Assembly: GCF_000018865.1 (NCBI RefSeq)
Contig: NC_010175.1
Coordinates: 310,001 to 374,000 of the forward strand
Reading direction: 5' to 3'
DNA: 64,000 nt
Source of the DNA: Chloroflexus aurantiacus J-10-fl
Lineage (GTDB): Bacteria > Chloroflexota > Chloroflexia > Chloroflexales > Chloroflexaceae
Made by a program: the position numbers and the translations under genes
Notes under the pieces: generated by a model
The model's database searches: none
The model's input: only the letters and a program-made list of their open reading frames with translations
Told to the model about the DNA's origin: nothing
Shown: positions 6,267 to 25,286 of the stretch, in pieces
Layout of the letters: each line of letters begins with the position of its first letter
Numbering within the stretch: the first letter of the stretch is position 1

Positions 6267-7016
6267 GTGAGTAACGAGCGACCATCTACAACATCAAACC
6301 CGCTGGCCGGTCTTGTTGCTATTGCCATTTTGCTCATTGTGTTAGGGTTTGTGGCCGGCCTCTTGATTAGCCGATCTGGAACACCAATAGTCGTACCAAC
6401 CGCAGCACCTGCTCCTACCAACCCACCAGCACCAACAGAGCCTGCATCGGTTCCCACACCGATCACCGGCAGTATGCCCATACTGCCTACAGCCACCACC
6501 TATCAGTACAGCAGTCCACCGCCAATGAGCATTGATCCGGCTAAAAAGTATACCGCTACTATCTACACCCCACGCGGTGAGATTGTGATTGAACTGCTAC
6601 CCGATATTGCGCCCCAGACGGTGAACAACTTCGTCTTCCTGGCCCGCCAGAACTTCTACAATGGCCTGACCTGGCATCGGGTACTGCCCAACTTTATGGC
6701 TCAGGGTGGCGACCCACGCGGCGATGGCACCGGTGGCCCCGGCTATACCATCCCGGCAGAGTTCACCGACAAGATTTTGTTCGACCAACCCGGTATCGTA
6801 GCTATGGCACGCTCGTCGGACCCAAACAGTGCCGGTTCGCAATTCTTCATCACCACGGCGCCGGCACCCCGGCTGAACGAGCAGTACACGATCTTCGGCA
6901 GAGTTATTCAGGGTCAGGAGATTGTTGACGGGATACCGCTGCGCGACCCGAGCAATCCTGCCGATCTGGCGACCCCCGGCGAGATGATTCTGGGTATTGC
7001 CATTAACGAAGAGTAG
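6267..7016 (+). CDS. Membrane-anchored cyclophilin-type peptidyl-prolyl isomerase
   Basis: Catalyses cis-trans isomerisation of X-Pro bonds, here outside the cytoplasmic membrane. Of 249 residues, about 15-37 form one membrane-spanning segment (VAIAILLIVLGFVAGLLIS) acting as a signal anchor. A Pro/Thr/Ala-rich linker (about 40-90) follows, then a complete cyclophilin domain (about 95-245). Diagnostic motifs are TWHRVLPNFMAQGGDP (active-site Arg and the QGGD loop), AMARSSDPNSAGSQFFIT and YTIFGRV. The start is GTG at 6267 with a GAGGTGA ribosome-binding site. The gene is monocistronic, bounded by a repeat element upstream and a hairpin downstream. Confidence 0.93.
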   Translation: MSNERPSTTSNPLAGLVAIAILLIVLGFVAGLLISRSGTPIVVPTAAPAPTNPPAPTEPASVPTPITGSMPILPTATTYQYSSPPPMSIDPAKKYTATIYTPRGEIVIELLPDIAPQTVNNFVFLARQNFYNGLTWHRVLPNFMAQGGDPRGDGTGGPGYTIPAEFTDKILFDQPGIVAMARSSDPNSAGSQFFITTAPAPRLNEQYTIFGRVIQGQEIVDGIPLRDPSNPADLATPGEMILGIAINEE

Positions 7017-10635: not shown

Positions 10636-10680
10636 CAAGCAGGTTTCTTGCCTGCTCCTGTTACCTGCACTACCTCAGCA

Positions 10681-12705
10681 TCAGGGCTTGCGCCGCCCAA
10701 ACCAGCTCCGGCGGGCAGGTTTGGACACCTGCTGGCGGAGTTGTGCAATATCATCGTCCGGTGAAGCCGGTACCGTCTCCGTTGTCGGTAGCGTTGCCTC
10801 AGATGTCTTTGCCGGCTGTGGTGCCCGTTTAAACCAGCTTCGACGAGGCTTGGGTGCTGTAGAAGGTGCAGCAACGACCGGGGCAGGCATTTCTGGCAGC
10901 GAAATTACCGGTTCGGGGTATGGGCTATCGCTATGTTCGGCACCTACGGCCCGTAACCATGACCACAGCAAACGGCGACGTTCAGCACCATCGGCCGGTA
11001 GCGTCAGCGGACGACCTCGTGCATCGATGATCAGGCCAAGCAGGCTCCCGTGAACCTCGGCAGGATCACTCTCAACAGCCTCACCGGGCGCGGCCTGTCC
11101 GACACGCACGGTAGCAGCCGGTTTTACCTTGACCTGGGCATAACGACCGACAGACAGAGGAAGACGGATCAACTCGCCATGACGAACCTGCACCCGCTCG
11201 CTATCGCCACCAACCGTAATCAGCTCAACATCGGCGACAGGTTCACCGATCCGACTGCCACCCTGCAATACAATACACGTCGCCAACGGTGTATTGTTCA
11301 ACAAGTCGTGGTCAAAAATCGAGATCGCAGCATCAGTACTAAGCGCAGCAATCCCACCACACACTGATAACAGACTCAGCATATCGAGGTGAATGGGAAG
11401 CAACAAACCGGGCAGTTCATTTGCCGGTTGTAAACCATCCAGTAAGGCCAGTAGGGCCATTCCGGGATGCGGGGCATGCGTCAGTACACCACCACCGGCC
11501 AGCAACCGTTCGTAGGCAAGGGGTGTCTGCTCGTCGCGGAGGGCAGCAACGCCCAGGGCCAATGCTTCACGGGCAAGCGCCAGATCGAGATAGCAATCTT
11601 CACGGGTCGCCGGTAGCGTTTGGGGACGCAGCATGCGATTGAGTAAGCGTTCAATCAACTCTTGTTCTTCAATGGCAAACGGTAGCCAGCGGGCAATTGC
11701 CGCCGGGCCGACCTCACTGAGCAACGCACCGACGCCAAAAGCTGTGCCACAAACGCCGTGGAGTGTTGCAGCGATCTGATCGGGTGCCGCAGCGATCAAC
11801 GTTGTAGTTGTCGCCCCAACATCGACGTACAGCACCGCTTGTTGCTGGCGCTCGGCCAGGAATCGCGTCATGACATACTGCGATTCAGCGACAGTTCGCA
11901 ATGTGGTCTGATCAGGCGCGCTCAATTGATCGATACCCGGCACATCGGTTAATTGCCGGGCATAGCAGGCCAGCAAAGCCTGCCGCAGCGGCGTCAATAC
12001 TTCCTGATCGAGGGCAGGGCGCACATTCGCAACCGTTATCAGCTCACAGTTGTGCCCACCAAGAGCAGCCTGAATCTGGGGTTGAACAGATGTATTGCCG
12101 GCATAAATAATGGTTGGTAGCGGCTGACGTATCGCCGCGGTGAATGAAAGTTTGAGGTTAATCAGGTGGGCAAGACGCTTCATGGCCTCGACCGTTCCAC
12201 CCTCAACGCCACCGGCTAACACAACAACATCCGGCAAGAGGGGTAGCAAGGTCTCAAGCTGACGCTCAAGCCACGACTGCATAACACCTGTCGTTGATCG
12301 AGCCGAGACATCATCCAGAGTGACGACCGCCAACACCACACTGGGCACCCCACGAACAGCATGCAGTGCGCTACGGGCTGACACATCAGACGCAATGGCC
12401 GCCACTACGACGCGCAATGGTTCAAGTGCCGATGTCACAACTATGACCGCATCAATGCCATCACCAGTACTGATGCGCGGCATCAGTAAACGACCATCGC
12501 GCAACAATTGCCGTCCGGTGAGATCGGCCAGTTGCGCTGTCGCTTCCTGCACCGCAAAAAAGACATTCCGGTACGGCAATTCACGACTGGTGAGCGTTTC
12601 GGTTTGTCCGATCAGACGGCTTTCACCATCAACCTCATCAATGAGCGAAACCCGGGTAATCAGACTACCAATTTCAACTGCCAGTATCGCCCGTACAAGT
12701 TCCAT
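10681..12705 (-). CDS. MutL-like (glutamate mutase L family) actin-fold ATPase
   Basis: A 674-residue protein with two ASKHA-type ATPase signatures. The first is ILAVEIGSLITRVSLID at the N-terminus (phosphate-1). The second is YVDVGATTTTLIAA (phosphate-2), with LLAGGGVLTHAPHPGM as the adenosine-type motif, and PDVVVLAGGVEGG as the segment typical of the MutL family. MutL is usually linked to cobalamin-dependent glutamate mutase, but no mutase gene is present here. The last about 80 residues are Pro/Arg-rich and repeat a short motif (RRSWFKR and RRSWFGR), possibly membrane or partner binding. Start is ATG 12705. It is the last gene of a five-gene operon of membrane proteins, suggesting an energy-providing or switch role in that system (inference). 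Confidence 0.72.
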   Translation of the reverse strand: MELVRAILAVEIGSLITRVSLIDEVDGESRLIGQTETLTSRELPYRNVFFAVQEATAQLADLTGRQLLRDGRLLMPRISTGDGIDAVIVVTSALEPLRVVVAAIASDVSARSALHAVRGVPSVVLAVVTLDDVSARSTTGVMQSWLERQLETLLPLLPDVVVLAGGVEGGTVEAMKRLAHLINLKLSFTAAIRQPLPTIIYAGNTSVQPQIQAALGGHNCELITVANVRPALDQEVLTPLRQALLACYARQLTDVPGIDQLSAPDQTTLRTVAESQYVMTRFLAERQQQAVLYVDVGATTTTLIAAAPDQIAATLHGVCGTAFGVGALLSEVGPAAIARWLPFAIEEQELIERLLNRMLRPQTLPATREDCYLDLALAREALALGVAALRDEQTPLAYERLLAGGGVLTHAPHPGMALLALLDGLQPANELPGLLLPIHLDMLSLLSVCGGIAALSTDAAISIFDHDLLNNTPLATCIVLQGGSRIGEPVADVELITVGGDSERVQVRHGELIRLPLSVGRYAQVKVKPAATVRVGQAAPGEAVESDPAEVHGSLLGLIIDARGRPLTLPADGAERRRLLWSWLRAVGAEHSDSPYPEPVISLPEMPAPVVAAPSTAPKPRRSWFKRAPQPAKTSEATLPTTETVPASPDDDIAQLRQQVSKPARRSWFGRRKP

Positions 12706-12746
12706 GCACTCTACCCCGAAATATGCGACGCATAGACGCCCAGGTG

Positions 12747-13394
12747 CTACATACCAGCAATAGCCCGTATCCAATCAATAATGAACAGGAGCCGCTCATT
12801 GAGGGCAGCAAGGTATGAAACAATACTACCGGCCAGAAAGAAACCGAACGCCAGCAGCAATATCCAGCGCCCTACACTCGCCACCAGATCAATCCACCGC
12901 TGCCGGTTTGGATTGGACGAGCGGGTCAACGAAAAGGACAATAAGGTCGCTATCGAGCCAATAAGTAAGACAATACTCCCCAGAATTGCTACCGGTGATG
13001 AAAGATCAGATCGAGTTGCATCGAGCACCTGCGGGAGTATCGTTCCAACAACGGCACCACCAACCACCAGTGCAGCGCCCACACCAAAAACGAGTGCTAA
13101 CGGCAGATTGGCCAGCCACGAACTGGTCTGTTGACCACTTATCCGCGTCAACAATAATGCCGCCAGAAAGAAAGGAGTCAGGCGTAGCGTCAGCAATACC
13201 GGTTGATCGCCGGCAGCAAGCACATCAATCACTGCCGGTCGCAACACCTGATGATATATCACCACAAATGCGTAGCCTAAAGCGACACCAACAAACAGGT
13301 ATTGGACCAACCGAAAGGCCGGTGTATCGCCCAGAACACGGCTGAAGACCAGTAGCGTAAGCAAGATCGGAATAAGGTTGATTGCAATGTCCAT
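12747..13394 (-). CDS. Polytopic membrane protein of the WL-repeat operon
   Basis: A 215-residue, very hydrophobic protein with about six predicted membrane segments (for example INLIPILLTLLVFS, LVFGVGAALVVGGAVVG, ILGSIVLLIGSIATLL, ILLLAFGFFLAGSIVS). No catalytic motif or known family was recognised. Its ATG overlaps the stop codon of the upstream WL-repeat gene by one base (TGATG on the minus strand), so translation is probably coupled. It precedes the MutL-like ATPase by 41 bp. Confidence 0.75.
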   Translation of the reverse strand: MDIAINLIPILLTLLVFSRVLGDTPAFRLVQYLFVGVALGYAFVVIYHQVLRPAVIDVLAAGDQPVLLTLRLTPFFLAALLLTRISGQQTSSWLANLPLALVFGVGAALVVGGAVVGTILPQVLDATRSDLSSPVAILGSIVLLIGSIATLLSFSLTRSSNPNRQRWIDLVASVGRWILLLAFGFFLAGSIVSYLAALNERLLFIIDWIRAIAGM

Positions 13395-16300
13395 CAGCCT
13401 CTACCTCGTGCCAGGCGTCGCAACTGCCCAATCCCAACAATGAAGGCCCCCAATAGCAGGACGCCAACAAACGCTATCGTTGCCCATGTCTGGTAGGAAA
13501 GCTCAGGTGTTGCCAGGTTATCAGCCTTTCCGGCAGCCAGCAAATCACTGGCACCACGTTGACCGGCAACCGCATACACATTGGGTAGGCGCGTATAGGG
13601 TAGCACTTGTGGATAGACCTCTTGCGGGAGCAAGAATGCAATCGGCACCTGCGGAGCGGCACTATGAATCTGCTCCATCCAGGCCTGTACATCCTGAACC
13701 TGATCGGCCATCACCACAATCATCGCCAGATCACGTAGTGACTGAATGCGTGGCGTTCCATCTGAGCGCGTAGCCAGCAAGCCGGCAGTCGCATCCTGGC
13801 CGGTATAGTCACGACGCAACTCTGCCCGCAAATCTATCGCCATACTGCGCAATGCCAGTTCACCGCCTGGACGATACCCCAGCAAGACGTAATCACGACC
13901 GCCGAAGATCACACCATTTTCGTTGTTGTAGCCGGCTGATCGTAACGGCCCAATCACATCAAAGGCAAGCAATGATCCCTGGAGATCGGTACTGACGATA
14001 ATCAGTTTTGTCCGATCCGCAGTTAATCTGGTGAGCAGCACATCTTCAAGTGGACGCAGCTCAGCGACACGCTGAGCACCCCATTCATACGCTACTAAAA
14101 CCACATCCTCACTGCTCAGACCGGCAAGTTGTTCGTTCAACGCAACAGCCACCGGCGACGGTTGAGCGCGATTCGTAAACGTGGCAGTGAGACCGGGAAT
14201 AGCGATACCGATCAACACAGCGATCAGCAGTACCACTGCCAGCCACTGTTCCAGGGTCGGTAAACGACGCCGAACGATTACTGGACGTTCAACAGGCAGG
14301 ATTGCCGGTAGCGGTGATTGCAGGAGTCGTTCAAGCAATGCAGCAGCGGCAATTTGATCATCGGTGCGCTGTGCAGGTGCAGGAGGTGGTGGCTTTACAA
14401 CAACCACGTCAGGCCCTGCAACGACCTCTTCTTCCTCCTCGGCTTCGCGGTGGCGCAGACGTTCCAGCCAGTCAGACAAGGGAGTAATGGCAGGCTCAAC
14501 AGCTCGTTCGGTCGAGGCCCGCAACCATGGCGGTAGCTCAGCACCGCTGAAGAATTCGTCGCTGGTTGAACTTGTAGTGAGCGAAGGTTCGGCGATTGGT
14601 GCATTCTCGGCTGGAGCTGATTGTAACCAGGAGATGGCCTCCGCTGAGACATCTGCTGTCAACCAATCAGGAGTATCAACCGGAGCAGTTGAAGCTTGCT
14701 GCAGCCAGTCCGGAACATCACTTCCAGCCGCCGGTGCCGACTCTTCCTGCAACCACACCGGTACGTCGCTACCCGCCGCTGGAGCGGCCTCTTCCCGCAA
14801 CCACGCCGGTACGTCGCCACCCGCCGCTGGAGCCGCCTCTTCCCGCAACCACGCCGGTACGTCGCTACCCGCCGCTGGAGCCGCCTCTTCCCGCAACCAC
14901 GCCGGTACGTCGCTACCCGCCGCTGGAGCGGCCTCTTCCCGCAACCACGCCGGTACGTCGCTACCCGCCGCTGGAGCGGCCTCTTCCCGCAACCACGCCG
15001 GTACGTCGCTACCCGCCGCTGGAGCGGCCTCTTCCCGCAACCACGCCGGTACGTCGCTACCCGCCGCTGGAGCGGCCTCTTCCCGCAACCACGCCGGTAC
15101 GTCGCTACCCGCCGCTGGAGCGGCCTCTTCCCGCAACCACGCCGGTACGTCGCTACCCGCCGCCGGTGCCGCCTCTTCCCGCAACCACGCCGGTACGTCG
15201 CTACCCGCCGCCGGTGCCGCCTCTTCCCGCAACCACGCCGGTACGTCGCTACCCGCCGCTGGGGCTGCCTCTTCCCGCAACCACGCCGGTACGTCGCTAC
15301 CCGCCGCTGGAGCGGCCTCTTCCTGCAACCACGCCGGTACGTCGCTACCAGCCGCTGGGGCTGCCTCTTCCCGCAACCACGCCGGCACGTCGCTACCCGC
15401 CGCTGGGGCTGCCTCTTCCCGCAACCACGCCGGTACGTCGCTACCAGCCGCTGGAGCGGCCTCTTCCCGCAACCACGCCGGTACGTCGCTACCCGCCGCC
15501 GGTGCCGCCTCTTCCCGCAACCACGCCGGTACGTCGCTACCCGCCGCCGGTGCCGCCTCTTCCTGCAACCACGCTGGCGCTTCACTGGCGGCAGCCGGCC
15601 ATTCGTCGGCAGCGGGGGCCTCGGCCTCGCGCAGCCAGGTTGGGATGTCACCCTCTCGCTCTGCCGGGGCCGCCTCTTCCCGCAACCACGCCGGTACGTC
15701 GCTACCCGTCGCTGGGGCGGCTTCTTCCTGCAACCACGCCGGCGCTTCACTGGCGGCAGCCGGCCATTCATCAGCCGCAGGTGCCTCGGCTTCGCGCAGC
15801 CAGGTTGGGATGTCACCTGCGCGCTCTGCCGGCGCCGCTTCGTCTTGCAACCACGCCGGCGCTTCACTGGCGGCGGTAGCCGGCCATTCGTCGGCAGCAG
15901 GTGCCTCGGCCTCGCGCAGCCAGGTTGGGATGTCACCTGCGCGCTCTGCCGGTGTCCCTTCTTCCTGCAACCACGCCGGCGCTTCACTGGCGGCAGCCGG
16001 CCATTCATCAGCCGCAGGTGCCTCGGCCTCGCGCAGCCAGGTTGGGATGTCACCCTCTCGCTCTGCTGGAGCCGCTTCGTCTTGCAACCACGCCGGCGCT
16101 TCACTGGCGGCGGCAGCCGGCCATTCATCAGCCGCAGGTGCCTCGGCCTCGCGCAGCCAGGTTGGGATGTCACCCTCTCGCTCTGCTGGGGCCGCTTCGT
16201 CTTGCAACCACGCCGGCGCTTCACTGGCGGCGGCAGCCGGCCATTCATCAGCCGCAGGTGCCTCGGCCTCGCGCAGCCAGGCTGGGATGTCACCCTCTCG

Positions 16301-17809
16301 CTCTGCTGGAGCCGCTTCGTCTTGCAGCCACGCTGGCGCTTCACTGGCAGCAGCCGGCCATTCGTCGGCAGCAGGTGCCTCGGCCTCGCGCAGCCAGGTT
16401 GGGATGTCACCCTCTCGCTCTGCTGGGGCCGCTTCGTCTTGCAGCCACGCTGGCGCTTCACTGGCAGCAGCCGGCCATTCGTCGGCAGTAGGTGCCTCGG
16501 CCTCGCGCAGCCAGGTTGGGATGTCACCCTCTCGCTCTGCTGGGGCCGCTTCGTCTTGCAGCCAGGCCGGCACTTCACTGGCAGCGGCAGCCGGCCATTC
16601 ATCAGCCGCAGGTGCCTCGGCCTCGCGCAGCCAGGTTGGGATGTCACCTGCGCGCTCTGCCGGTGTCCCTTCTTCCTGCAACCACGCTGGCGCTTCACTG
16701 GCGGCAGCAGCCGGCCATTCATCAGCCGCAGGTACCTCGGCCTCGCGCAGCCAGGTTGGGATGTCGGCAGAGGCTTCAGGCTCAGAACCGGCAGGCGTCA
16801 ACCTCGAAGGAGCAGACAGATCGACACCTTCCTGCCCGGGGACAACAGCACGACTATCGGCCAGCAACGTTGGCGCATCAGGTGCAATCGCAGGTGAAGT
16901 CGGCGATAGAGAAGACTCATCTTCGAGCAGCCAGGAAGGCAAATCAAGACGCACCGAACCCGGTGCCGCAGGTGGCTCATCACCAGCAACATCCTGTAAC
17001 CAGGCCGGTAGAGCCGGTGCCGAAGGATCAACAGGCGGTGGCTGAGCCGAGGAGAGCCAGTCAGGACTATCGGTCGCGACAACCGTCTCAGCATTTGCAG
17101 CACCGGCTCGCGCCCAATCATCCTCTGAGGCCAGTCTGGCCAACTCATCCAGCCAATCGGTTGGAGTCTTTTCAGACGCTTCCTTCGCTTCAACCGGAGG
17201 GGTCGTCTCTGCCGGAGGTAAAGACGCTAAGGCTTGCGAGACATCCTCTTCACTCAACTCACGCAACCAATCGGGAACACCGGCGTTTGGATCAGGGGGT
17301 GCCGGTTCTGGCGACTGTTCTGCTGAAGCTGGCTCAACCTCATCTTCATGACCCATACTGCGCAGCCAATCGGTCGGGCCGACCGGCATCCGCAGGCGCG
17401 AACTCGTCGTTGGTGGCGGTTCAGACGGTGTCACCGGGCCAGTCGACGTCTCACCCCCCAACCCTTGCAGCCAGCCGGTGGCCCCAAAGGTTGAAGGGCG
17501 TTCAGCCGGCGGTTCAGCCTCAACACCACCTAACCATTCAGCGGCGGAACCGGTATCAGCAAGCGGATCGGCAACCTCGGCTTGCAATTCGGCCAGCCAG
17601 TCGGGCACACTTGCCGATTCGGCTGCCGACTCAGAGGCTGGTTCAGGTTCAGTAAGCCAGGCAGGCGGATGGTCTGTTGCCGGCGTCGGGGCTGGAGGGG
17701 TAAAACTATCAATACCGCGCAACCAGGCCGGCGTCTCATCAGCGGCGTCGGTTGGCGGTGGAGGCAAGGGTACATTACGCAACCACGGTGGTAGGTGTTC
17801 CATAGACAT
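13394..17809 (-). CDS. Giant WL-motif repeat protein with C-terminal membrane domain
   Basis: About 1471 residues. The N-terminal two thirds are Ala/Pro/Glu-rich, with the short motif P-x-W-L repeated dozens of times. First come irregular units (LPPWLRN, TPAWLRG, VPDWLAE, PTDWLRSM), then about ten 39-40-residue units containing GDIPTWLREAEAP and ASEAPAWLQDEAAP, then about eighteen nearly identical 16-residue units with consensus APAAGSDVPAWLREEA. After a Glu-rich stretch there is one membrane segment (LAVVLLIAVLIGIAIPGLT), a folded region of about 200 residues (SSEDVVLVAYEWGAQRVAEL onward) and a final membrane helix (WATIAFVGVLLLGAFIVGIG). ATGs at 17809 and 17803 are possible starts. The repeats look like tandem linear docking motifs. 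Function is unknown; it is flanked in its operon by membrane proteins and an ATPase. Confidence 0.8.
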   Translation of the reverse strand: MSMEHLPPWLRNVPLPPPPTDAADETPAWLRGIDSFTPPAPTPATDHPPAWLTEPEPASESAAESASVPDWLAELQAEVADPLADTGSAAEWLGGVEAEPPAERPSTFGATGWLQGLGGETSTGPVTPSEPPPTTSSRLRMPVGPTDWLRSMGHEDEVEPASAEQSPEPAPPDPNAGVPDWLRELSEEDVSQALASLPPAETTPPVEAKEASEKTPTDWLDELARLASEDDWARAGAANAETVVATDSPDWLSSAQPPPVDPSAPALPAWLQDVAGDEPPAAPGSVRLDLPSWLLEDESSLSPTSPAIAPDAPTLLADSRAVVPGQEGVDLSAPSRLTPAGSEPEASADIPTWLREAEVPAADEWPAAAASEAPAWLQEEGTPAERAGDIPTWLREAEAPAADEWPAAAASEVPAWLQDEAAPAEREGDIPTWLREAEAPTADEWPAAASEAPAWLQDEAAPAEREGDIPTWLREAEAPAADEWPAAASEAPAWLQDEAAPAEREGDIPAWLREAEAPAADEWPAAAASEAPAWLQDEAAPAEREGDIPTWLREAEAPAADEWPAAAASEAPAWLQDEAAPAEREGDIPTWLREAEAPAADEWPAAASEAPAWLQEEGTPAERAGDIPTWLREAEAPAADEWPATAASEAPAWLQDEAAPAERAGDIPTWLREAEAPAADEWPAAASEAPAWLQEEAAPATGSDVPAWLREEAAPAEREGDIPTWLREAEAPAADEWPAAASEAPAWLQEEAAPAAGSDVPAWLREEAAPAAGSDVPAWLREEAAPAAGSDVPAWLREEAAPAAGSDVPAWLREEAAPAAGSDVPAWLQEEAAPAAGSDVPAWLREEAAPAAGSDVPAWLREEAAPAAGSDVPAWLREEAAPAAGSDVPAWLREEAAPAAGSDVPAWLREEAAPAAGSDVPAWLREEAAPAAGSDVPAWLREEAAPAAGSDVPAWLREEAAPAAGSDVPAWLREEAAPAAGSDVPAWLREEAAPAAGGDVPAWLREEAAPAAGSDVPVWLQEESAPAAGSDVPDWLQQASTAPVDTPDWLTADVSAEAISWLQSAPAENAPIAEPSLTTSSTSDEFFSGAELPPWLRASTERAVEPAITPLSDWLERLRHREAEEEEEVVAGPDVVVVKPPPPAPAQRTDDQIAAAALLERLLQSPLPAILPVERPVIVRRRLPTLEQWLAVVLLIAVLIGIAIPGLTATFTNRAQPSPVAVALNEQLAGLSSEDVVLVAYEWGAQRVAELRPLEDVLLTRLTADRTKLIIVSTDLQGSLLAFDVIGPLRSAGYNNENGVIFGGRDYVLLGYRPGGELALRSMAIDLRAELRRDYTGQDATAGLLATRSDGTPRIQSLRDLAMIVVMADQVQDVQAWMEQIHSAAPQVPIAFLLPQEVYPQVLPYTRLPNVYAVAGQRGASDLLAAGKADNLATPELSYQTWATIAFVGVLLLGAFIVGIGQLRRLARGRG
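14695..15575 (-). repeat. Coding minisatellite, 48-bp period (about 18 units)
   Basis: Within the WL-repeat gene, a 48-bp unit containing CCACGCCGGTACGTCGCTAC recurs about eighteen times with few changes, nearly all synonymous (GGAGCGGCC, GGTGCCGCC or GGGGCTGCC variants). The unit length is a multiple of three, so copy-number change keeps the frame. Confidence 0.9.
15590..16765 (-). repeat. Coding minisatellite, about 117-120-bp period (about 10 units)
   Basis: A second tandem array in the same gene. Each unit has a CAGCCAGGTTGGGATGTCAC block and a GGCGCTTCACTGGC block, encoding the 39-40-residue unit with two W-L motifs each. Units vary by in-frame triplets (one or two extra GCG/GCA), a mark of slippage or unequal crossing over. 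Confidence 0.88.
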
Positions 17810-17832
17810 TCGGGTGCCGCTACCCAACCGGA

Positions 17833-18501
17833 TCAACGGTCGGCATACGGCATATCAAAACCAATTAGCAGACGGACTCCGGCCACCAGCGCCCCAATCG
17901 CCGAGCCAAGCAGCAGACCGCGCGCTCCAGCCGCAACCAGATAGTCATTCACCCATTGTACCGTCTGCCCAATTATTGGCACGAGAGTTAATGGTGGCAA
18001 CTGAATAATCAACGCTATAAGCGCCACAGCTACCACAAACACAGCCTCGATGCGGCCACTACGCATTGCGCGCAACATGGCACTGAGTGCAAAAAACGAA
18101 AGCAGCGCTAACAGACTGGCGGCTAACGGTTCATAAATCAGACGAAAAACAGTACGGATCGGTGGATCAGCCAGAGTTGTCGGTAACGACAAACCGGTTG
18201 CAGTACGGGTTGGGTAGAAGATTCCAGCCACAATCACCACGATCATACCGGCCAGAAGCACGAGGCTGTACCCGGCCTCCGCTGATCGGCTACGAGCACG
18301 ACGTAGATGAACGAAAAACACACTTAACACGCCAATTGCAACCGCAATCGCTGTTATCAATGCTGCCCAGCGCACCAAAACGACAGCTATCGTACTTACT
18401 GCCGGGCCAGCACCGACAAAATCGAGCAGCACAATCAGGCCGCTAACCCCGGCAATTAACACAGTGATAAGCTGACGTGGATTGCGCAACGGAGATGACA
18501 T
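17833..18501 (-). CDS. Polytopic membrane protein of the WL-repeat operon
   Basis: A 222-residue hydrophobic protein with six to seven predicted membrane segments (LITVLIAGVSGLIVLLDFVG, VRWAALITAIAVAIGVLSVF, YSLVLLAGMIVVIVAGIFY, AASLLALLSFFALSAML and others). No known family was recognised. The start at ATG 18501 directly follows the stop of the upstream DUF6754-like gene (18506); its own stop lies about 24 bp before the ATG of the WL-repeat gene. Probably part of one membrane complex with its neighbours (inference). Confidence 0.75.
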   Translation of the reverse strand: MSSPLRNPRQLITVLIAGVSGLIVLLDFVGAGPAVSTIAVVLVRWAALITAIAVAIGVLSVFFVHLRRARSRSAEAGYSLVLLAGMIVVIVAGIFYPTRTATGLSLPTTLADPPIRTVFRLIYEPLAASLLALLSFFALSAMLRAMRSGRIEAVFVVAVALIALIIQLPPLTLVPIIGQTVQWVNDYLVAAGARGLLLGSAIGALVAGVRLLIGFDMPYADR

Positions 18502-18505
18502 TACC

Positions 18506-19300
18506 TCACCATCCCGGTAAAGCCGGCCATCCAAATGCTACCCGGATCAGACCGTATCCGAAAGCTATCAACATAAGCCAGATGACTATTGTGCGCAGTG
18601 TATCGTGAGTAAGTAACCGGGCCTGTGGGGCAGGTGCAGTCGTGAGATGTGCTTCAGCAGCGTACAGCTCTTCGCCGGCCAGTACATGCGGCGTTGTAAT
18701 GATCATCAATCCCAGTGCCGATGGGTGCGTACTGCCCAGCACCTGTGGTATCGCCCGCTGAGCGCCGGTTTCAGCCGCCAGCAACACCTCTTGCCCAAAT
18801 GCCCCGCTGAGCACACTGGCTTCCAGTTGCGCCTGGCGATAATGTGCCGCAACAGCAGTCGCGTATGCCATCGCATCAGCATGCGCCCACAACTCAATCT
18901 GGCGCGGATCAAACGACTGAGACTGCCCCAACGTTTGATAAGCCTGCCGTACCACCCCGCGCAAGGCTAAATGGGCGACTGCATCAGCCGAACTGACCTC
19001 AATCGCTGCCCCGCCAGCCGCAGCCTGACTGGCGGCCTGGCCTATCATACTCAGACCGGCCAACAGCTCGGCTGTACTGGCCCGTTGTCCTTCTCCGGCA
19101 CCAATGGTGCTTGCCCCTGGCGAGAGATGAACCGGTCGTCCAGTTTCGGCACTGCGCGCAAGAGCAGAGCGCAGCATATCAAGGGCGGGTAACGAGCGAC
19201 GTTCCGGTAAACGACCAGAGAGCGCACGGGCATGATGTAGCCAGACCAGAGCGACAACGAAGATCAGTGTAACAATTAAGAAGATTGCCGGCAGGGTCAT
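18506..19300 (-). CDS. DUF6754-like membrane protein
   Basis: A 264-residue protein: an N-terminal membrane helix (LPAIFLIVTLIFVVALVWL), a soluble domain (about 40-215) and a second membrane helix near the C-terminus (IVIWLMLIAFGYGLIRVAFG). The soluble part has the order I associate with DUF6754 proteins of Chloroflexota: PVHLSPGASTIG, AELLAGLSMIGQ, AYATAVAAHYR, LEASVLSGAFGQEVLLAAETG, and VLAGEELYAAEAHL. Biochemical function is unknown. ATG 19300 is the chosen start. It is the first gene of the operon, downstream of a strong promoter at 19366-19394. Confidence 0.7.
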   Translation of the reverse strand: MTLPAIFLIVTLIFVVALVWLHHARALSGRLPERRSLPALDMLRSALARSAETGRPVHLSPGASTIGAGEGQRASTAELLAGLSMIGQAASQAAAGGAAIEVSSADAVAHLALRGVVRQAYQTLGQSQSFDPRQIELWAHADAMAYATAVAAHYRQAQLEASVLSGAFGQEVLLAAETGAQRAIPQVLGSTHPSALGLMIITTPHVLAGEELYAAEAHLTTAPAPQARLLTHDTLRTIVIWLMLIAFGYGLIRVAFGWPALPGW

Positions 19301-19365
19301 GAATATCAGTTCCTTCCTTCCGCCAACAAGCAATCTTTTACAGGCTAATGACCAATTTCTTATTG

Positions 19366-19394
19366 AGTTTAACCCACGAGATCGGGTTTGTCAA
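19366..19394 (-). promoter_or_regulatory. Sigma-70-type promoter of the WL-repeat operon
   Basis: On the minus strand a perfect TTGACA (19394-19389) and TAAACT (19371-19366) are separated by 17 bp, and the first gene's ATG (19300) lies about 60 nt downstream. Confidence 0.65.
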
Positions 19395-21816: not shown

Positions 21817-22671
21817 ATGGCTACAATGAAAGTGATTACCGACGGCGCAAGCGACATTCCGTTTGAGGTTGCGCACGAACTTGAGATTGAAGTGGTGCCA
21901 CTGCTGGCACGTATCGATGACCGTCTTTATCGGATTGGCATTGACATCAGTGAGGATCAGGTCTACGATCAACTCTTTAGCGGTAACCAGCGGGTCGAGA
22001 TCGTTAAACCAAACGCAACGACCTTTGAGCAGCTCTACCGCAGCCTGTTAGGACGCTACGATTATGTCTTTTCGATTCACCTGAGCCGGCATCTCGGCGA
22101 GATTTACAGTGAAGCACTGGCCGGCCGTTCCCGCTTGCCGGCGTCGAGTACCCGGATCGAGATTATCGATAGTAAGCTGGCCGGTATGGGACTCGGCTCG
22201 GTGGCCATTGCGGCGGCACGGGCTATCCGTGATGGCATGACACCGGCTGAGGTGAACGAACGGATCGGACAGACAATTCGCCATACCCATACGGCATTTT
22301 TCGTCGATACGATGGAGTACCTTGAGCAGAGTGGACTGCTTACCTTCAGTGGTTCGCTGATTGGATCGATGCAGCGGATTAAGCCGTTGATGATTCTCGA
22401 TGAAGGCGAAATCGTGCCTTACGAGCGCACGCGCACACGGGCGAAGGCGATAGAAGGTCTGTTTACCTTTGTCGAGGATTTTCCGCACGTTGAAGATGTG
22501 ATCATTCACTACGCGACGACGCCTGAAGATGTCGAGAAACTGCTCGAGAAGCTAGACCCCATCTTTTCCCGTGATCGAGTCCAGGTGTCGCGGATGGGGC
22601 CGGCAATTGCTGCCTGCCTCGGTCCCGGTGCAATGGCAGTGACCGCGTTTGAAGGTTTCGATGAGGCATGA
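21817..22671 (+). CDS. DegV family fatty-acid-binding protein
   Basis: DegV/FakB-type protein that binds a fatty acid, often presenting it to a fatty acid kinase. Its 284 residues have the two-domain layout. The N-terminus VITDGASDIPFEVAHELEI and VVPLLARIDDRLYRIGIDI is followed by KPNATTFEQLYRSLLGRYD, the conserved IHLSRHLGEIYSEAL, and the C-terminal domain with FFVDTMEYLEQSGLL, IKPLMILDEGEIVPYERTRT and GPGAMAVTAF. Start ATG 21817; ATG 21826 is an alternative. Its stop overlaps the recG start (ATGA), so the two are translationally coupled. Confidence 0.92.
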   Translation: MATMKVITDGASDIPFEVAHELEIEVVPLLARIDDRLYRIGIDISEDQVYDQLFSGNQRVEIVKPNATTFEQLYRSLLGRYDYVFSIHLSRHLGEIYSEALAGRSRLPASSTRIEIIDSKLAGMGLGSVAIAAARAIRDGMTPAEVNERIGQTIRHTHTAFFVDTMEYLEQSGLLTFSGSLIGSMQRIKPLMILDEGEIVPYERTRTRAKAIEGLFTFVEDFPHVEDVIIHYATTPEDVEKLLEKLDPIFSRDRVQVSRMGPAIAACLGPGAMAVTAFEGFDEA

Positions 22672-25286
22672 CCGAGGCTGAGCGACAGCAGGTTATAGCG
22701 CTCGGCAGGCTACTGGCCGCCGAGCGCCGTGATGGATGCGCTGATCGGGTGACAACTGATGGCCTGGTGGCGTACCTCAACCAGTGGAGTGCAGCGGCAG
22801 GGAGTGCAGCACGTTTGCCCGCTGTTCAGCGTGCACTTGGTTGTCTGGTCGGCTACGATGGCATGACGCTGGTCGAGCGGGATCAGGCGTTGGCCGAGGC
22901 AATCGAAATCCTGCGCTCACTCTTTCGCACTGCCCCTACTGCACCGGTTGAAACAACAGTGCCGCCATCGCCGGCAGTCGATCCTACAGCCAATGCCGGC
23001 CACGTACCGGTAACTAAGCGCAACACTTCTGCCCGTCAGTCACGCAAGCGAGCAGCTAACGTTGACCAGCGCCCGCTGGCTGAACTCAATCTCGATGCAC
23101 CGCTTGAGCAGATCGCAGGCATCGACTGGCGGCTGGTCGGTGGTTTTCGGCGCCTGGGAGTGCGTACTATCCGCGATCTGCTGTACCACTTTCCCCGGCG
23201 CTACGATGATGTGAGGAACCGGCGTTCGATCAGCGAATTACAGGTCGGGGCCGAGGAAACGGTGATCGGTGAGGTGACCGATGTGCGCACTATCGGCGCC
23301 GGCCCCAAATTGCGGGTACGAGTCGAGGTCAGCGACGAGACCGGATCAATCGAGGCGATCTTTTTCAATCAACGCTGGATTGCGCAGCAGATTCGGGTTG
23401 GGCAGACGATTGCGCTCAGTGGCAAAGTGACAACCTTTGGCGGGAAGCGGCAGTTTAGTAGTCCACGCTGGGAACGTTATACACCCGATCCTGATGCACT
23501 CTTACACACTGGCCGCCTGGTACCGATCCATCCCTTAACCCAGGGCTTGCACGAGAACCAGGTACGTCGCTTCATCAAGCAGGTGGTTGATACAATGGCC
23601 CCACAGGTCGAGGATCATCTGCCGCCTGTGCGCCTCCAGCACGCCAGATTGCTACCGCTAGGTGAAGCACTGGCACAAATCCATTTTCCGACCGACCATA
23701 CCAGTCTGGCTGCGGCACGTCGCCGGCTGGGGTTTGACGAATTTCTGTTTATTCAGATCGGTGTGTTGCAGCGTAAACGCCTCTGGCAGCAGGAGATGGG
23801 CTATGCCTTTACCATCGACTCGCAGGTACACGCCGAACTCCAACGCCTGTTGCCGTTTCAATTGACCACTGCCCAACAGCGGGCAATCGAGGAAATCTTT
23901 AGCGACCTCCGCCGTCCATCACCGATGGCTCGCTTGCTGCAAGGCGATGTTGGCAGCGGTAAAACGGTGGTGGCCGCAGCCGCGCTGCTGCAGGCCGTTG
24001 CCAATGGCTTCCAGGGCGCACTGATGGCACCAACTGAAATTCTGGCCGAGCAACACGCCAAAAACCTGAAACAGCTTCTCAGCCGGGTGCGCGTGCCACG
24101 TAAGACAACCTCAGCCACTGCTTCTTCCGCGTATCAGCAAGCCGATTGGCGATCACTGCTCGATCCTGAAGAAGCAGCGCAACTGGCTGAGATTATCTCC
24201 ATTCTCGGCATGTCGCCCGAAGAGGATATGGGTGGGCACGGAGTACGGGTCGCTTTGCTCACCGGCAGCCTGGGGACACGCGAGCGACGGCGGGTGCTGG
24301 AAGGGATTGCGCGCGGCGAGATCGACCTGGTGGTAGGCACCCATGCCCTGATCACCGAAACGGTGCAATTTGCTCAGCTAGGGCTGGTGGTGGTTGACGA
24401 GCAGCATCGGTTTGGTGTAGAGCAACGTCTGCGCCTGAAGAACAAAGGCTACAATCCGCATATGCTGGTGATGACTGCCACCCCGATTCCGCGCACGCTC
24501 ACGATGACTATCTACGGCGATCTGGACGTATCGGTGCTCGACGAGCGTCCACCGGGCCGACAAGAGATTCGGACAAAACGGGTGGGCCGGGCTGAGCGAG
24601 CGAAGGTCTACCGGCATATTCGGAAACAGGTCGCTGAAGGACGCCAGGTGTATGTCATCTGCCCGCTGGTTGAAGAGAGTGAAAAACTTGACCTGCCCTC
24701 AGCCGAAGAGATGTATGAACGCCTTCAGCACGAAGTCTTTCCCGACTTGCGGGTGGCATTGCTGCACGGCAAACTATCGGCCCGCGAGAAAGATGATGTA
24801 ATGCGGGCATTTCGCGATCACCAGTACGACATTCTGGTCGCAACTGCGGTGATCGAGGTCGGGATTGATGTGCCGAACGCCACCACGATTGTTATTGAGG
24901 GTGCCGAACGGTTCGGCCTGGCGCAATTGCACCAGTTTCGCGGGCGTGTCGGACGTGGTCATCATCAGAGTTACTGCATCCTGATCAGCGACAGCGATAA
25001 TCAGCAGTCAAAAGAGCGATTGGCGGCGCTTGAGCAAACAACCGATGGCTTCAAGCTGGCCGAAATTGATTTACAATTGCGCGGGCCGGGTGAATTTTTC
25101 GGCACGCGCCAGAGTGGTACTCCCGATCTGAAGATGGCCCAACAGGGCGATACCCGTCTGCTGGCCGAAGCGCGGGCATTGGCCGACGCCATTCTTGCCG
25201 ATGATCCTGAACTTAAGCGTCCTGAACATGACCTTTTGCGGCGAAAAGTGAATGACTTTTGGGCTGCGGCGACGCAGTCCGGTTGA
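22668..25286 (+). CDS. recG: ATP-dependent DNA helicase RecG
   Basis: Double-stranded DNA translocase that remodels stalled forks and Holliday junctions. At 872 residues it is longer than E. coli RecG (about 690) because of an N-terminal extension of about 140 residues with a low-complexity linker. After this come the wedge/OB domain (RRLGVRTIRDLLYHFPRRYD; SDETGSIEAIFFNQRW), Walker A LLQGDVGSGKTVV, PTEILAEQHAKN, DEQHRFGVEQR (DExH box), MTATPIPRTLTMTIYGDLD, VATAVIEVGIDVPNAT and motif VI QFRGRVGRGHHQSYC. A basic insert with KTTSATASSAYQQ lies between motifs Ia and II. It overlaps degV by 4 bp and is followed after 11 bp by the E2-like gene. Confidence 0.95.
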   Translation: MTEAERQQVIALGRLLAAERRDGCADRVTTDGLVAYLNQWSAAAGSAARLPAVQRALGCLVGYDGMTLVERDQALAEAIEILRSLFRTAPTAPVETTVPPSPAVDPTANAGHVPVTKRNTSARQSRKRAANVDQRPLAELNLDAPLEQIAGIDWRLVGGFRRLGVRTIRDLLYHFPRRYDDVRNRRSISELQVGAEETVIGEVTDVRTIGAGPKLRVRVEVSDETGSIEAIFFNQRWIAQQIRVGQTIALSGKVTTFGGKRQFSSPRWERYTPDPDALLHTGRLVPIHPLTQGLHENQVRRFIKQVVDTMAPQVEDHLPPVRLQHARLLPLGEALAQIHFPTDHTSLAAARRRLGFDEFLFIQIGVLQRKRLWQQEMGYAFTIDSQVHAELQRLLPFQLTTAQQRAIEEIFSDLRRPSPMARLLQGDVGSGKTVVAAAALLQAVANGFQGALMAPTEILAEQHAKNLKQLLSRVRVPRKTTSATASSAYQQADWRSLLDPEEAAQLAEIISILGMSPEEDMGGHGVRVALLTGSLGTRERRRVLEGIARGEIDLVVGTHALITETVQFAQLGLVVVDEQHRFGVEQRLRLKNKGYNPHMLVMTATPIPRTLTMTIYGDLDVSVLDERPPGRQEIRTKRVGRAERAKVYRHIRKQVAEGRQVYVICPLVEESEKLDLPSAEEMYERLQHEVFPDLRVALLHGKLSAREKDDVMRAFRDHQYDILVATAVIEVGIDVPNATTIVIEGAERFGLAQLHQFRGRVGRGHHQSYCILISDSDNQQSKERLAALEQTTDGFKLAEIDLQLRGPGEFFGTRQSGTPDLKMAQQGDTRLLAEARALADAILADDPELKRPEHDLLRRKVNDFWAAATQSG

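Follow-up and report, generated by a model that had tools for sequence, protein, structure and literature searches.

What would an ATPase related to MutL be doing at the end of a run of membrane-protein genes, one of which encodes a very long tail of repeated Pro-x-Trp-Leu (PxWL) motifs? The question is raised by Chloroflexus aurantiacus J-10-fl, a filamentous bacterium of hot springs, whose genome is one contig of 5,258,541 bases (NC_010175.1), and within it by positions 310001–374000, the stretch of 64,000 nucleotides referred to here as the window. At window positions 10681–19300, five co-directed minus-strand open reading frames (ORFs) with ATG starts, all of them confirmed, encode in order a DUF6754 protein, membrane protein A, the PxWL-bearing protein (the WL protein), membrane protein B and an ASKHA-type MutL-like ATPase, with intergenic gaps of +4, +23, −1 and +41 nt. 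Comparison across genomes strongly supports the conclusion that the five genes form one conserved multi-gene membrane system and are not chance neighbours, since their order is kept while the genes around them differ between families.

The distribution was followed through 301 Chloroflexota genomes, the surveys for DUF6754, MutL and the glutamate mutase GlmE being taken as covering the same set because their genome handles are identical. DUF6754 occurs in 66 of these genomes (32 of 179 genera, 17 families) and in none of 14 control genomes, and MutL (PF13941) in 157 at E ≤ 0.001, with 121 above the cut-off. Sixty-four of the 66 DUF6754 genomes also have MutL, those without a match being G105 and G288, and in 52 of the 66 the two genes share a contig and a strand, with DUF6754 first and MutL 2.2–6.3 kb downstream. 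The genes fall on separate contigs in 12 genomes, in 11 of which (all but G227) DUF6754 lies within 2.7 kb of a contig end, the one towards which MutL should lie. At closer range, 31 of 31 loci, namely the window and 30 relatives (L061–L090) picked from the same-contig genomes, one to three per genus, carry all five genes with order and orientation unchanged, and this order is kept while the genes flanking the cluster vary between families. A scan with a MutL alignment over one genome per species (84,980 species) gave at least 480 confirmed relatives of one Anaerolineae sequence, and the best 80 of these 480 loci, with genes called by a simple longest-ORF scheme that leaves starts rough, are all titled Chloroflexota, many of them Anaerolineales (e.g., Levilinea saccharolytica, Bellilinea caldifistulae). 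Six genes stand in order in 63 of the 80; among the remaining 17, 11 loci start at a contig end upstream of MutL, and in the other six the set is present with a gene split, undetected, cut, or misordered by an overlapping start. The initial annotation, made from the window alone, had proposed five adjacent genes with overlaps or short gaps and had tied the idea of one system to their not being scattered in relatives. Both the adjacency and the linkage hold, and what it overlooked is a sixth linked gene.

This sixth gene, which encodes a protein of ~350 amino acids (aa), directly follows MutL in 15 of 20 DUF6754 loci outside Chloroflexales and in 0 of 11 within the order, and was found in 76 of the best 80 loci. 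Its product gives weak RnfC_N- and biotin-lipoyl-like matches below cut-off and, in a sequence search of the PDB, similarity to SPT5 in the KOW region (1e-5), and for these reasons likely consists of barrel-sandwich halves with a KOW-like end. In C. aurantiacus the gene is unlinked, at genome positions 4,096,274–4,097,374 on the minus strand (3e-85; the same as L282:14269-15402), and in four Chloroflexales genomes it adjoins, by eye, receiver-domain-like genes. The second gene after MutL, following the sixth gene, encodes in seven loci (L074, L076, L077, L079, L080, L082 and L084) a small protein, possibly a cell-wall-anchored partner, whose C-terminus consists of a hydrophobic segment and basic residues preceded by a sortase-like motif, which is LPNTG, LPTTG or LPQTG in six of the proteins and MPTSG in the seventh.

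Absences are linked as well. Of 60 Chloroflexales genomes, 45 have DUF6754, 47 have MutL and 48 have the sixth gene, and all ten genomes of genus g8 (family f3; 1.7–3.6 Mb; G134, G312, G315–G319, G327, G329 and G331) are without the three of them, although these ten absences may be a single evolutionary event. The exceptions outside g8 are G222 and G313, with the sixth gene only, G288, with DUF6754 only, G308, without the sixth gene, and G301, G305 and G306, which have MutL and the sixth gene and no DUF6754 match. G222 (genus g3), 99% complete, has kept the sixth gene and is without DUF6754 and MutL, through either an assembly gap or recent loss.

What kind of membrane assembly do the proteins suggest? 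By a crude hydropathy scan, membrane proteins A and B each have six transmembrane (TM) segments and the WL protein has two; the scan also flags six stretches of the MutL-like protein, taken as buried strands. The DUF6754 protein matches PF20539 at 107 bits (cut-off 27) over profile positions 7–243 of 257, and A, B and the WL protein match no Pfam family over cut-off, the nearest being DUF2304 for A (17.7 versus 25.5 bits). The DUF6754 protein and the conserved core of the WL protein, its last ~300 aa, are both modelled as TM–Rossmann-like–TM, with mean pLDDT (predicted local distance difference test) values of 90.6 for the former and 84.9 for the latter, an AlphaFold model. The DUF6754 domain is predicted to be cytoplasmic from the charges after TM1, TM2 being uninformative. 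In the WL protein, lysine and arginine number four before and one after TM1 and one before and four after TM2, a pattern that predicts a cytoplasmic tail and an extracytoplasmic Rossmann-like domain; the N-terminal CxxC..CxxC zinc-ribbon pattern of most related proteins fits with the tail being inside. Neither domain has a match at E ≤ 0.001 in Foldseek against the PDB. Structural alignment with VIA-align returns generic Rossmann rows for both, the best Z being 10.2 for DUF6754 (root-mean-square deviation (rmsd) 3.7, 145 aligned, Sir2) and 8.8 for the WL core (rmsd 3.2, 142 aligned, CODH subunit). In a PDB sequence search DUF6754 had no match at E ≤ 1, and those of the WL core and the MutL-like protein were only marginal. 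Two suspected kinships were rejected: DUF6754 and the WL core, sharing a TM–Rossmann–TM layout, as paralogues (hhalign probability 2.6%), and membrane protein B as a DUF6754 relative, its iterated-profile cross-hits being dropped at a profile–profile probability of 1.6%.

The tail of the WL protein is a different matter from its core. Its length of 1471 residues is as the initial annotation gave it, and its 49 PxWL motifs are repeated far above chance; the further claim, that the set is built around this giant repeat, fails, as PxWL counts range from 0 to 63. The window has 49, three congeners 63, 62 and 19, four loci none and the other 23 loci 1–37, and three of the four loci at zero encode short orthologues of 286–299 aa (L088–L090). 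Given this range, the PxWL repeats are, on sequence grounds, a fast-changing add-on, and the TM–Rossmann–TM domain is the core. The tandem DNA units in the gene are near-identical (48-bp × 17.7 copies, 120-bp × 8.9 copies), and the near-identity of the 48-bp units points to recent expansion; genome-wide, a codon pattern for D[IVM]PxWLR has 27 matches, 26 of them inside the WL gene, and a control pattern has 0. The zinc-ribbon pattern, usual in relatives (87 of 106 WL-tail proteins; this and the DARGRPL counts below are regular-expression matches) and lost in this species, had been overlooked. Of ten fetched loci that lack DUF6754, seven encode, directly before MutL, a protein belonging to a single zinc-ribbon–PxWL family. 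In the four members inspected (L091, L094, L095 and L097), a zinc-ribbon-like pattern at the N-terminus is combined with repeated PxW[LM] motifs; by eye they show no TM segment, and they end in short basic or amphipathic stretches such as RRGGWRRFFGRK. Since these DUF6754-less loci pair a PxWL protein with MutL, and the sixth gene is present in 8 of the 10 stretches, the WL tail, MutL and the sixth gene may be an older core.

To what might such an array bind? Over 106 tails the commonest residues are [ED]-[LVI]-P-[DA]-W-L-[RSK]. Among 989 unique PxW[LMI] sites, the residue at −2 is acidic in 62% and that at −1 aliphatic in 70%, as against 18% and 13% at 6753 control proline sites in the same tails, and arginine or lysine stands at +4 in 38% versus 6% for the tail background. 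These preferences recall the C-terminal peptide of FtsZ, which in all 29 Chloroflexota tails used (a regular expression gave 31 ends from 47 loci; L202 and L226, without such a peptide, were dropped) reads [DE]-[IV]-P-[ASP]-F-[LI]-R. Of the two FtsZ_C matches in this genome, the one examined ends in NDDLDIPPFLRGR... The pattern [DE][IVL]P-x-[FW][LI][RK] occurs 27 times in the window tail, whose commonest units are DVPAWLR (16 copies), DIPTWLR (9) and EAPAWLQ (9), and 191 times in the 106 tails, for which 20 shuffles gave a mean of 0.05. The FtsZ peptide is a hub for ZipA, FtsA and other proteins, according to passages of PMC8669495.

Our leading reading, held with distinctly less than even confidence, is of a membrane-anchored, ATP-switched platform that displays, at the septum, an array of peptides like the FtsZ tail. 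In it, both six-TM proteins would join with both TM–Rossmann–TM proteins in a membrane complex, the DUF6754 domain inside and the WL-protein domain outside. The MutL-like protein would be the ATP switch, held at the membrane in most Chloroflexales by its own short basic-aromatic C-terminal tail (such as RRSWFGRRKP or PKKRGFFRRK), which is present in 8 of 11 Chloroflexales proteins (the window, L061, L064, L065 and L067–L070) and is reminiscent of the tails by which MinD and FtsA are targeted to the membrane. The WL tail would mimic the C-terminal peptide of FtsZ in many copies, as a decoy or docking array, and collect a reader of that peptide, either FtsA or the MutL-like ASKHA protein itself; through this reader the complex would be tied to the division ring or to the finished septa of filaments, with avidity tuned by repeat number. 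The sequences show that the unit is conserved, and from them we infer a link to FtsZ and a role at the septum. Filamentous growth is presumably common to the cultured lineages with the set, and the genomes of family f15 (1.4–1.9 Mb, a size like that of Dehalococcoides) have no DUF6754 match, a pattern confounded with phylogeny. The initial annotation had proposed a membrane machine in which the repeats act as a docking scaffold and an actin-fold protein supplies ATP switching; a membrane location, an ASKHA-family ATPase and a multivalent motif array do fit the sequences, and the scaffold's partner, which it left open, now has a candidate in the likeness to the FtsZ peptide. The MutL-like tails were also seen to resemble membrane-targeting helices and the WL-protein ends in L095 and L097.

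Several observations weigh against this proposal. What ties the system to FtsZ is the likeness of a short motif, spotted post hoc, and the motif sites, drawn from related proteins and tandem copies, are not independent. W fills the aromatic position at 98% of 1020 unique sites, against F in 29 of 29 FtsZ tails, position +1 is mostly D versus A or S, and R or K follows only 38% of sites versus R in all 29, so that the array reader may be a different protein from the readers of the FtsZ peptide; the nine EAPAWLQ copies in the window are without FtsZ-like flanks. Nor is the locus beside the dcw genes, lying at 0.32 Mb, with ftsA and an FtsZ gene at 1.02 Mb. In three loci the other core genes are present and WL motifs are not, and G134, of genus g8, has FtsZ and not the system, which is thus not needed for division in G134. 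Finally, PxWL is also found outside the locus, in a TPR-like protein of two Anaerolineae. The two TPR-like proteins (L267:6367-9522, minus strand, 1051 aa, 11 PxWL; L268:5601-8465, plus strand, 954 aa, 4 PxWL), whose genes both adjoin an ndk-like gene (both by eye), include one site with F, EIPDFLRAAGW (IPDFLR). Because these unlinked proteins carry the same motifs, one with F, it is plausible that they and the WL proteins share one motif reader.

An alternative of about the same likelihood, again well short of an even chance, keeps the one membrane machine and has PxWL read by the MutL-like ATPase or another dedicated reader, not related to FtsZ, with the assembly organising envelope or signalling proteins. 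It would make sense of the predominance of W over F, of MutL standing next to WL proteins in both locus architectures (with or without DUF6754), and of the adjacency of the sixth gene to receiver-domain-like genes in those four Chloroflexales genomes. It would fit, too, with the loci L088–L090, which are without WL motifs and whose PF13941 match reaches no further than about position 200 of the profile's 450. Its cost is that the acidic–aliphatic–P–x–aromatic–L likeness to the FtsZ tail is left as coincidence, and the TPR-like proteins off the locus make it probable that the reader is not private to it. As for readers of the FtsZ peptide itself, FtsA is present in this genome (111 bits) and SepF has no match in it; matches to the FtsA domain PF14450 lie at 1.02, 4.08 and 0.15 Mb, none at the locus, and the MutL-like protein matches only PF13941 at E ≤ 1.

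Could the cluster instead be the motor or assembly base of a surface appendage, a secretion system or a gliding machine, with the ASKHA protein acting in the manner of PilM? We consider this unlikely. An ASKHA protein beside small TM proteins does bring PilM–PilN–PilO to mind by analogy, although the cluster occurs in many Anaerolineae, which are not known as gliders. Besides the sixth gene, the flanks of the cluster have no gene family common to more than 7 of 41 stretches, in surveys not aimed at pilus or secretion genes. On the favourable side, Chloroflexales glide and bear pili near their septa, as passages of PMC7332563 describe.

A bolder form of the septal proposal, in which the cluster encodes a septal channel or cell-junction complex whose cytoplasmic array of FtsZ-tail mimics captures division-ring parts and stops daughter cells from coming apart or losing their connection, with the actin-fold ATPase as gate, seems to us very unlikely. 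Against it, PMC7332563 describes no clear channels in Chloroflexus aggregans, and the genus has the system. Were this form true, it would supply missing machinery of bacterial multicellularity in Chloroflexota.

GlmL, the MutL of glutamate mutase systems, is regarded as a reactivase or chaperone of an adenosylcobalamin enzyme, and the MutL-like protein might serve such an enzyme, or another radical enzyme, with its neighbours incidental. Family membership speaks for this: the protein matches the whole PF13941 profile at 266.8 bits (4.5e-79, cut-off 27). Its scores against the GlmL equivalogs fall far below their cut-offs (NF040745, 56.4 versus 475 bits; NF040744, 65.7 versus 600; TIGR01319, 42.7 versus 204), and GlmE (PF06368) has no match at E ≤ 0.001 in this genome. 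Across the survey, GlmE exceeds its cut-off in 4 of 301 genomes (G089, G176, G178 and G137) and in 0 of the 66 with DUF6754, bearing out the earlier remark that the gene is not accompanied by a mutase; the one-system idea thus also survives the second refuting condition of the initial annotation, that the MutL-like gene might co-occur with a mutase elsewhere. A further 16 GlmE matches fall short of the cut-off, 8 of them in DUF6754 genomes. G089, G176 and G178 have mutase-type MutL matches above 500 bits, and G137 no listed MutL match. Moreover, the extra C-terminal domain marked by DARGRPL is found in 35 of 41 collected MutL proteins (the misses being L067, L070, L083, L089, L090 and L098) and in 0 of 5 mutase-type GlmL loci (L032–L036), and the gene is linked to membrane genes. 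The split between the two types is not perfectly clean, as G290 has DUF6754, a cluster-type MutL and, elsewhere, a 488-bit mutase-type MutL, with GlmE not over cut-off. A mutase accessory role was rejected on equivalog scores and genome content, and the broader reactivase idea is highly improbable. L037/L098 (G184:C45), a MutL-containing frame of 1264–1268 aa in another gene context and without DARGRPL, is by its sequence another use of the ATPase family. Last and least probable, to the point of deserving almost no credence, is that these are vertically inherited neighbours with unrelated functions: descent alone can keep gene order in slowly rearranging regions, but here order is kept beside differing flanks and a whole genus is without the three markers together, including one that is unlinked in Chloroflexales, albeit through what may be one event.

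The features of the locus are collected in the table. The set is flanked by KorA/KorB-like genes (Pfam) and a recG-looking gene (by eye, 22668-25286). With korA/korB being Caur_0249/0250 and recG Caur_0261, as passages of PMC3150298 give them, the five genes are probably Caur_0251–0255. A purine-rich stretch, GGAAGGAAGGAA, lies immediately 5′ of the DUF6754 ATG, and the promoter candidate is suitably positioned, although the promoter scan was overall weak as evidence (7 sites versus 3.3 expected, standard deviation 2.0). The tandem repeat is GC-rich, for which reason the long ORFs over it in other frames, at 14364-17045 (plus strand, 893 aa) and 14659-16722 (minus strand, 687 aa), are probably spurious.

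Table. Features of the DUF6754–MutL locus, in window positions.
Feature	Position	Strand	Description
Sigma-70-like promoter candidate	19366..19394	-	TTGACA-17-TAAACT, 10/12; consensus match only
DUF6754 protein (PF20539)	18506..19300	-	264 aa; Rossmann-like domain, predicted cytoplasmic, between N- and C-terminal TM helices
Membrane protein A	17833..18501	-	222 aa; six predicted TM segments; in 31/31 loci compared
WL protein	13394..17809	-	1471 aa; 49 PxWL in an acidic, low-complexity tail of ~1190 aa, followed by a Rossmann-like domain, predicted extracytoplasmic, between two TM helices
Tandem-repeat part of WL tail	14727..16765	-	48-bp and 120-bp DNA units
WL protein conserved core	13397..14296	-	last 300 aa; common to 286-299 aa orthologues without WL motifs
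Membrane protein B	12747..13394	-	215 aa; six predicted TM segments; conserved GGAxxGTxxPQ
MutL-like ASKHA ATPase	10681..12705	-	674 aa; PF13941 region, then C-terminal DARGRPL domain, then basic-aromatic tail (..RRSWFGRRKP)
Terminator-like hairpin	10637..10657	-	directly 3′ of MutL stop codon; consensus match only

A literature search that covered few subscription journals found no description of DUF6754 function or of the five- or six-gene set, in line with the initial annotation, which knew of none; the inferred tags Caur_0251 to Caur_0256 had no mention in the literature searched, and the main text of a proteomics paper (PMC9316378) does not mention the set under the terms searched. The outcome is a membrane system of five to six genes whose order is kept, present within the sample in 17 families of a single phylum, and for which the literature searched describes no function. 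If the FtsZ-tail mimicry is real, it would represent a new wiring of a membrane complex to the division ring, through a long repeat of a hub peptide whose copy number changes within one genus from 19 to 63, and the motif makes the idea directly testable with short peptides.

How, then, does the system compare with those already known? To GlmL/MutL (PF13941, NF040745) it is related by an ASKHA-type family shared at 267 bits over the whole profile, and it differs in having no GlmE in the genome, scores below the equivalog cut-offs, an extra C-terminal domain and a membrane-gene context. Cyanobacterial septal junction proteins (FraC, FraD, SepJ and SepN) offer an analogy only; in PMC7332563, septal channels, some of them capped, are described from cryo-tomography of Roseiflexus and Viridilinea without their genes being named, and homologues of sepJ, fraC and fraD are given as absent from Chloroflexota. 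The resemblance to FtsA, an actin-like anchor and FtsZ-peptide reader of the actin-fold family, would be one of working only: the MutL-like protein has a basic-aromatic tail in the 8 of 11 Chloroflexales loci and a neighbour carrying FtsZ-tail-like peptides, whereas it has no FtsA Pfam match and a separate FtsA is encoded elsewhere in the genome. The WL motif, finally, is like the FtsZ C-terminal peptide in its acidic–aliphatic–P–x–aromatic–L sequence, often followed by a basic residue, and unlike it in having W for F, a basic residue in only 38% of sites, and tens of copies in a membrane-protein tail where FtsZ has one at its end.

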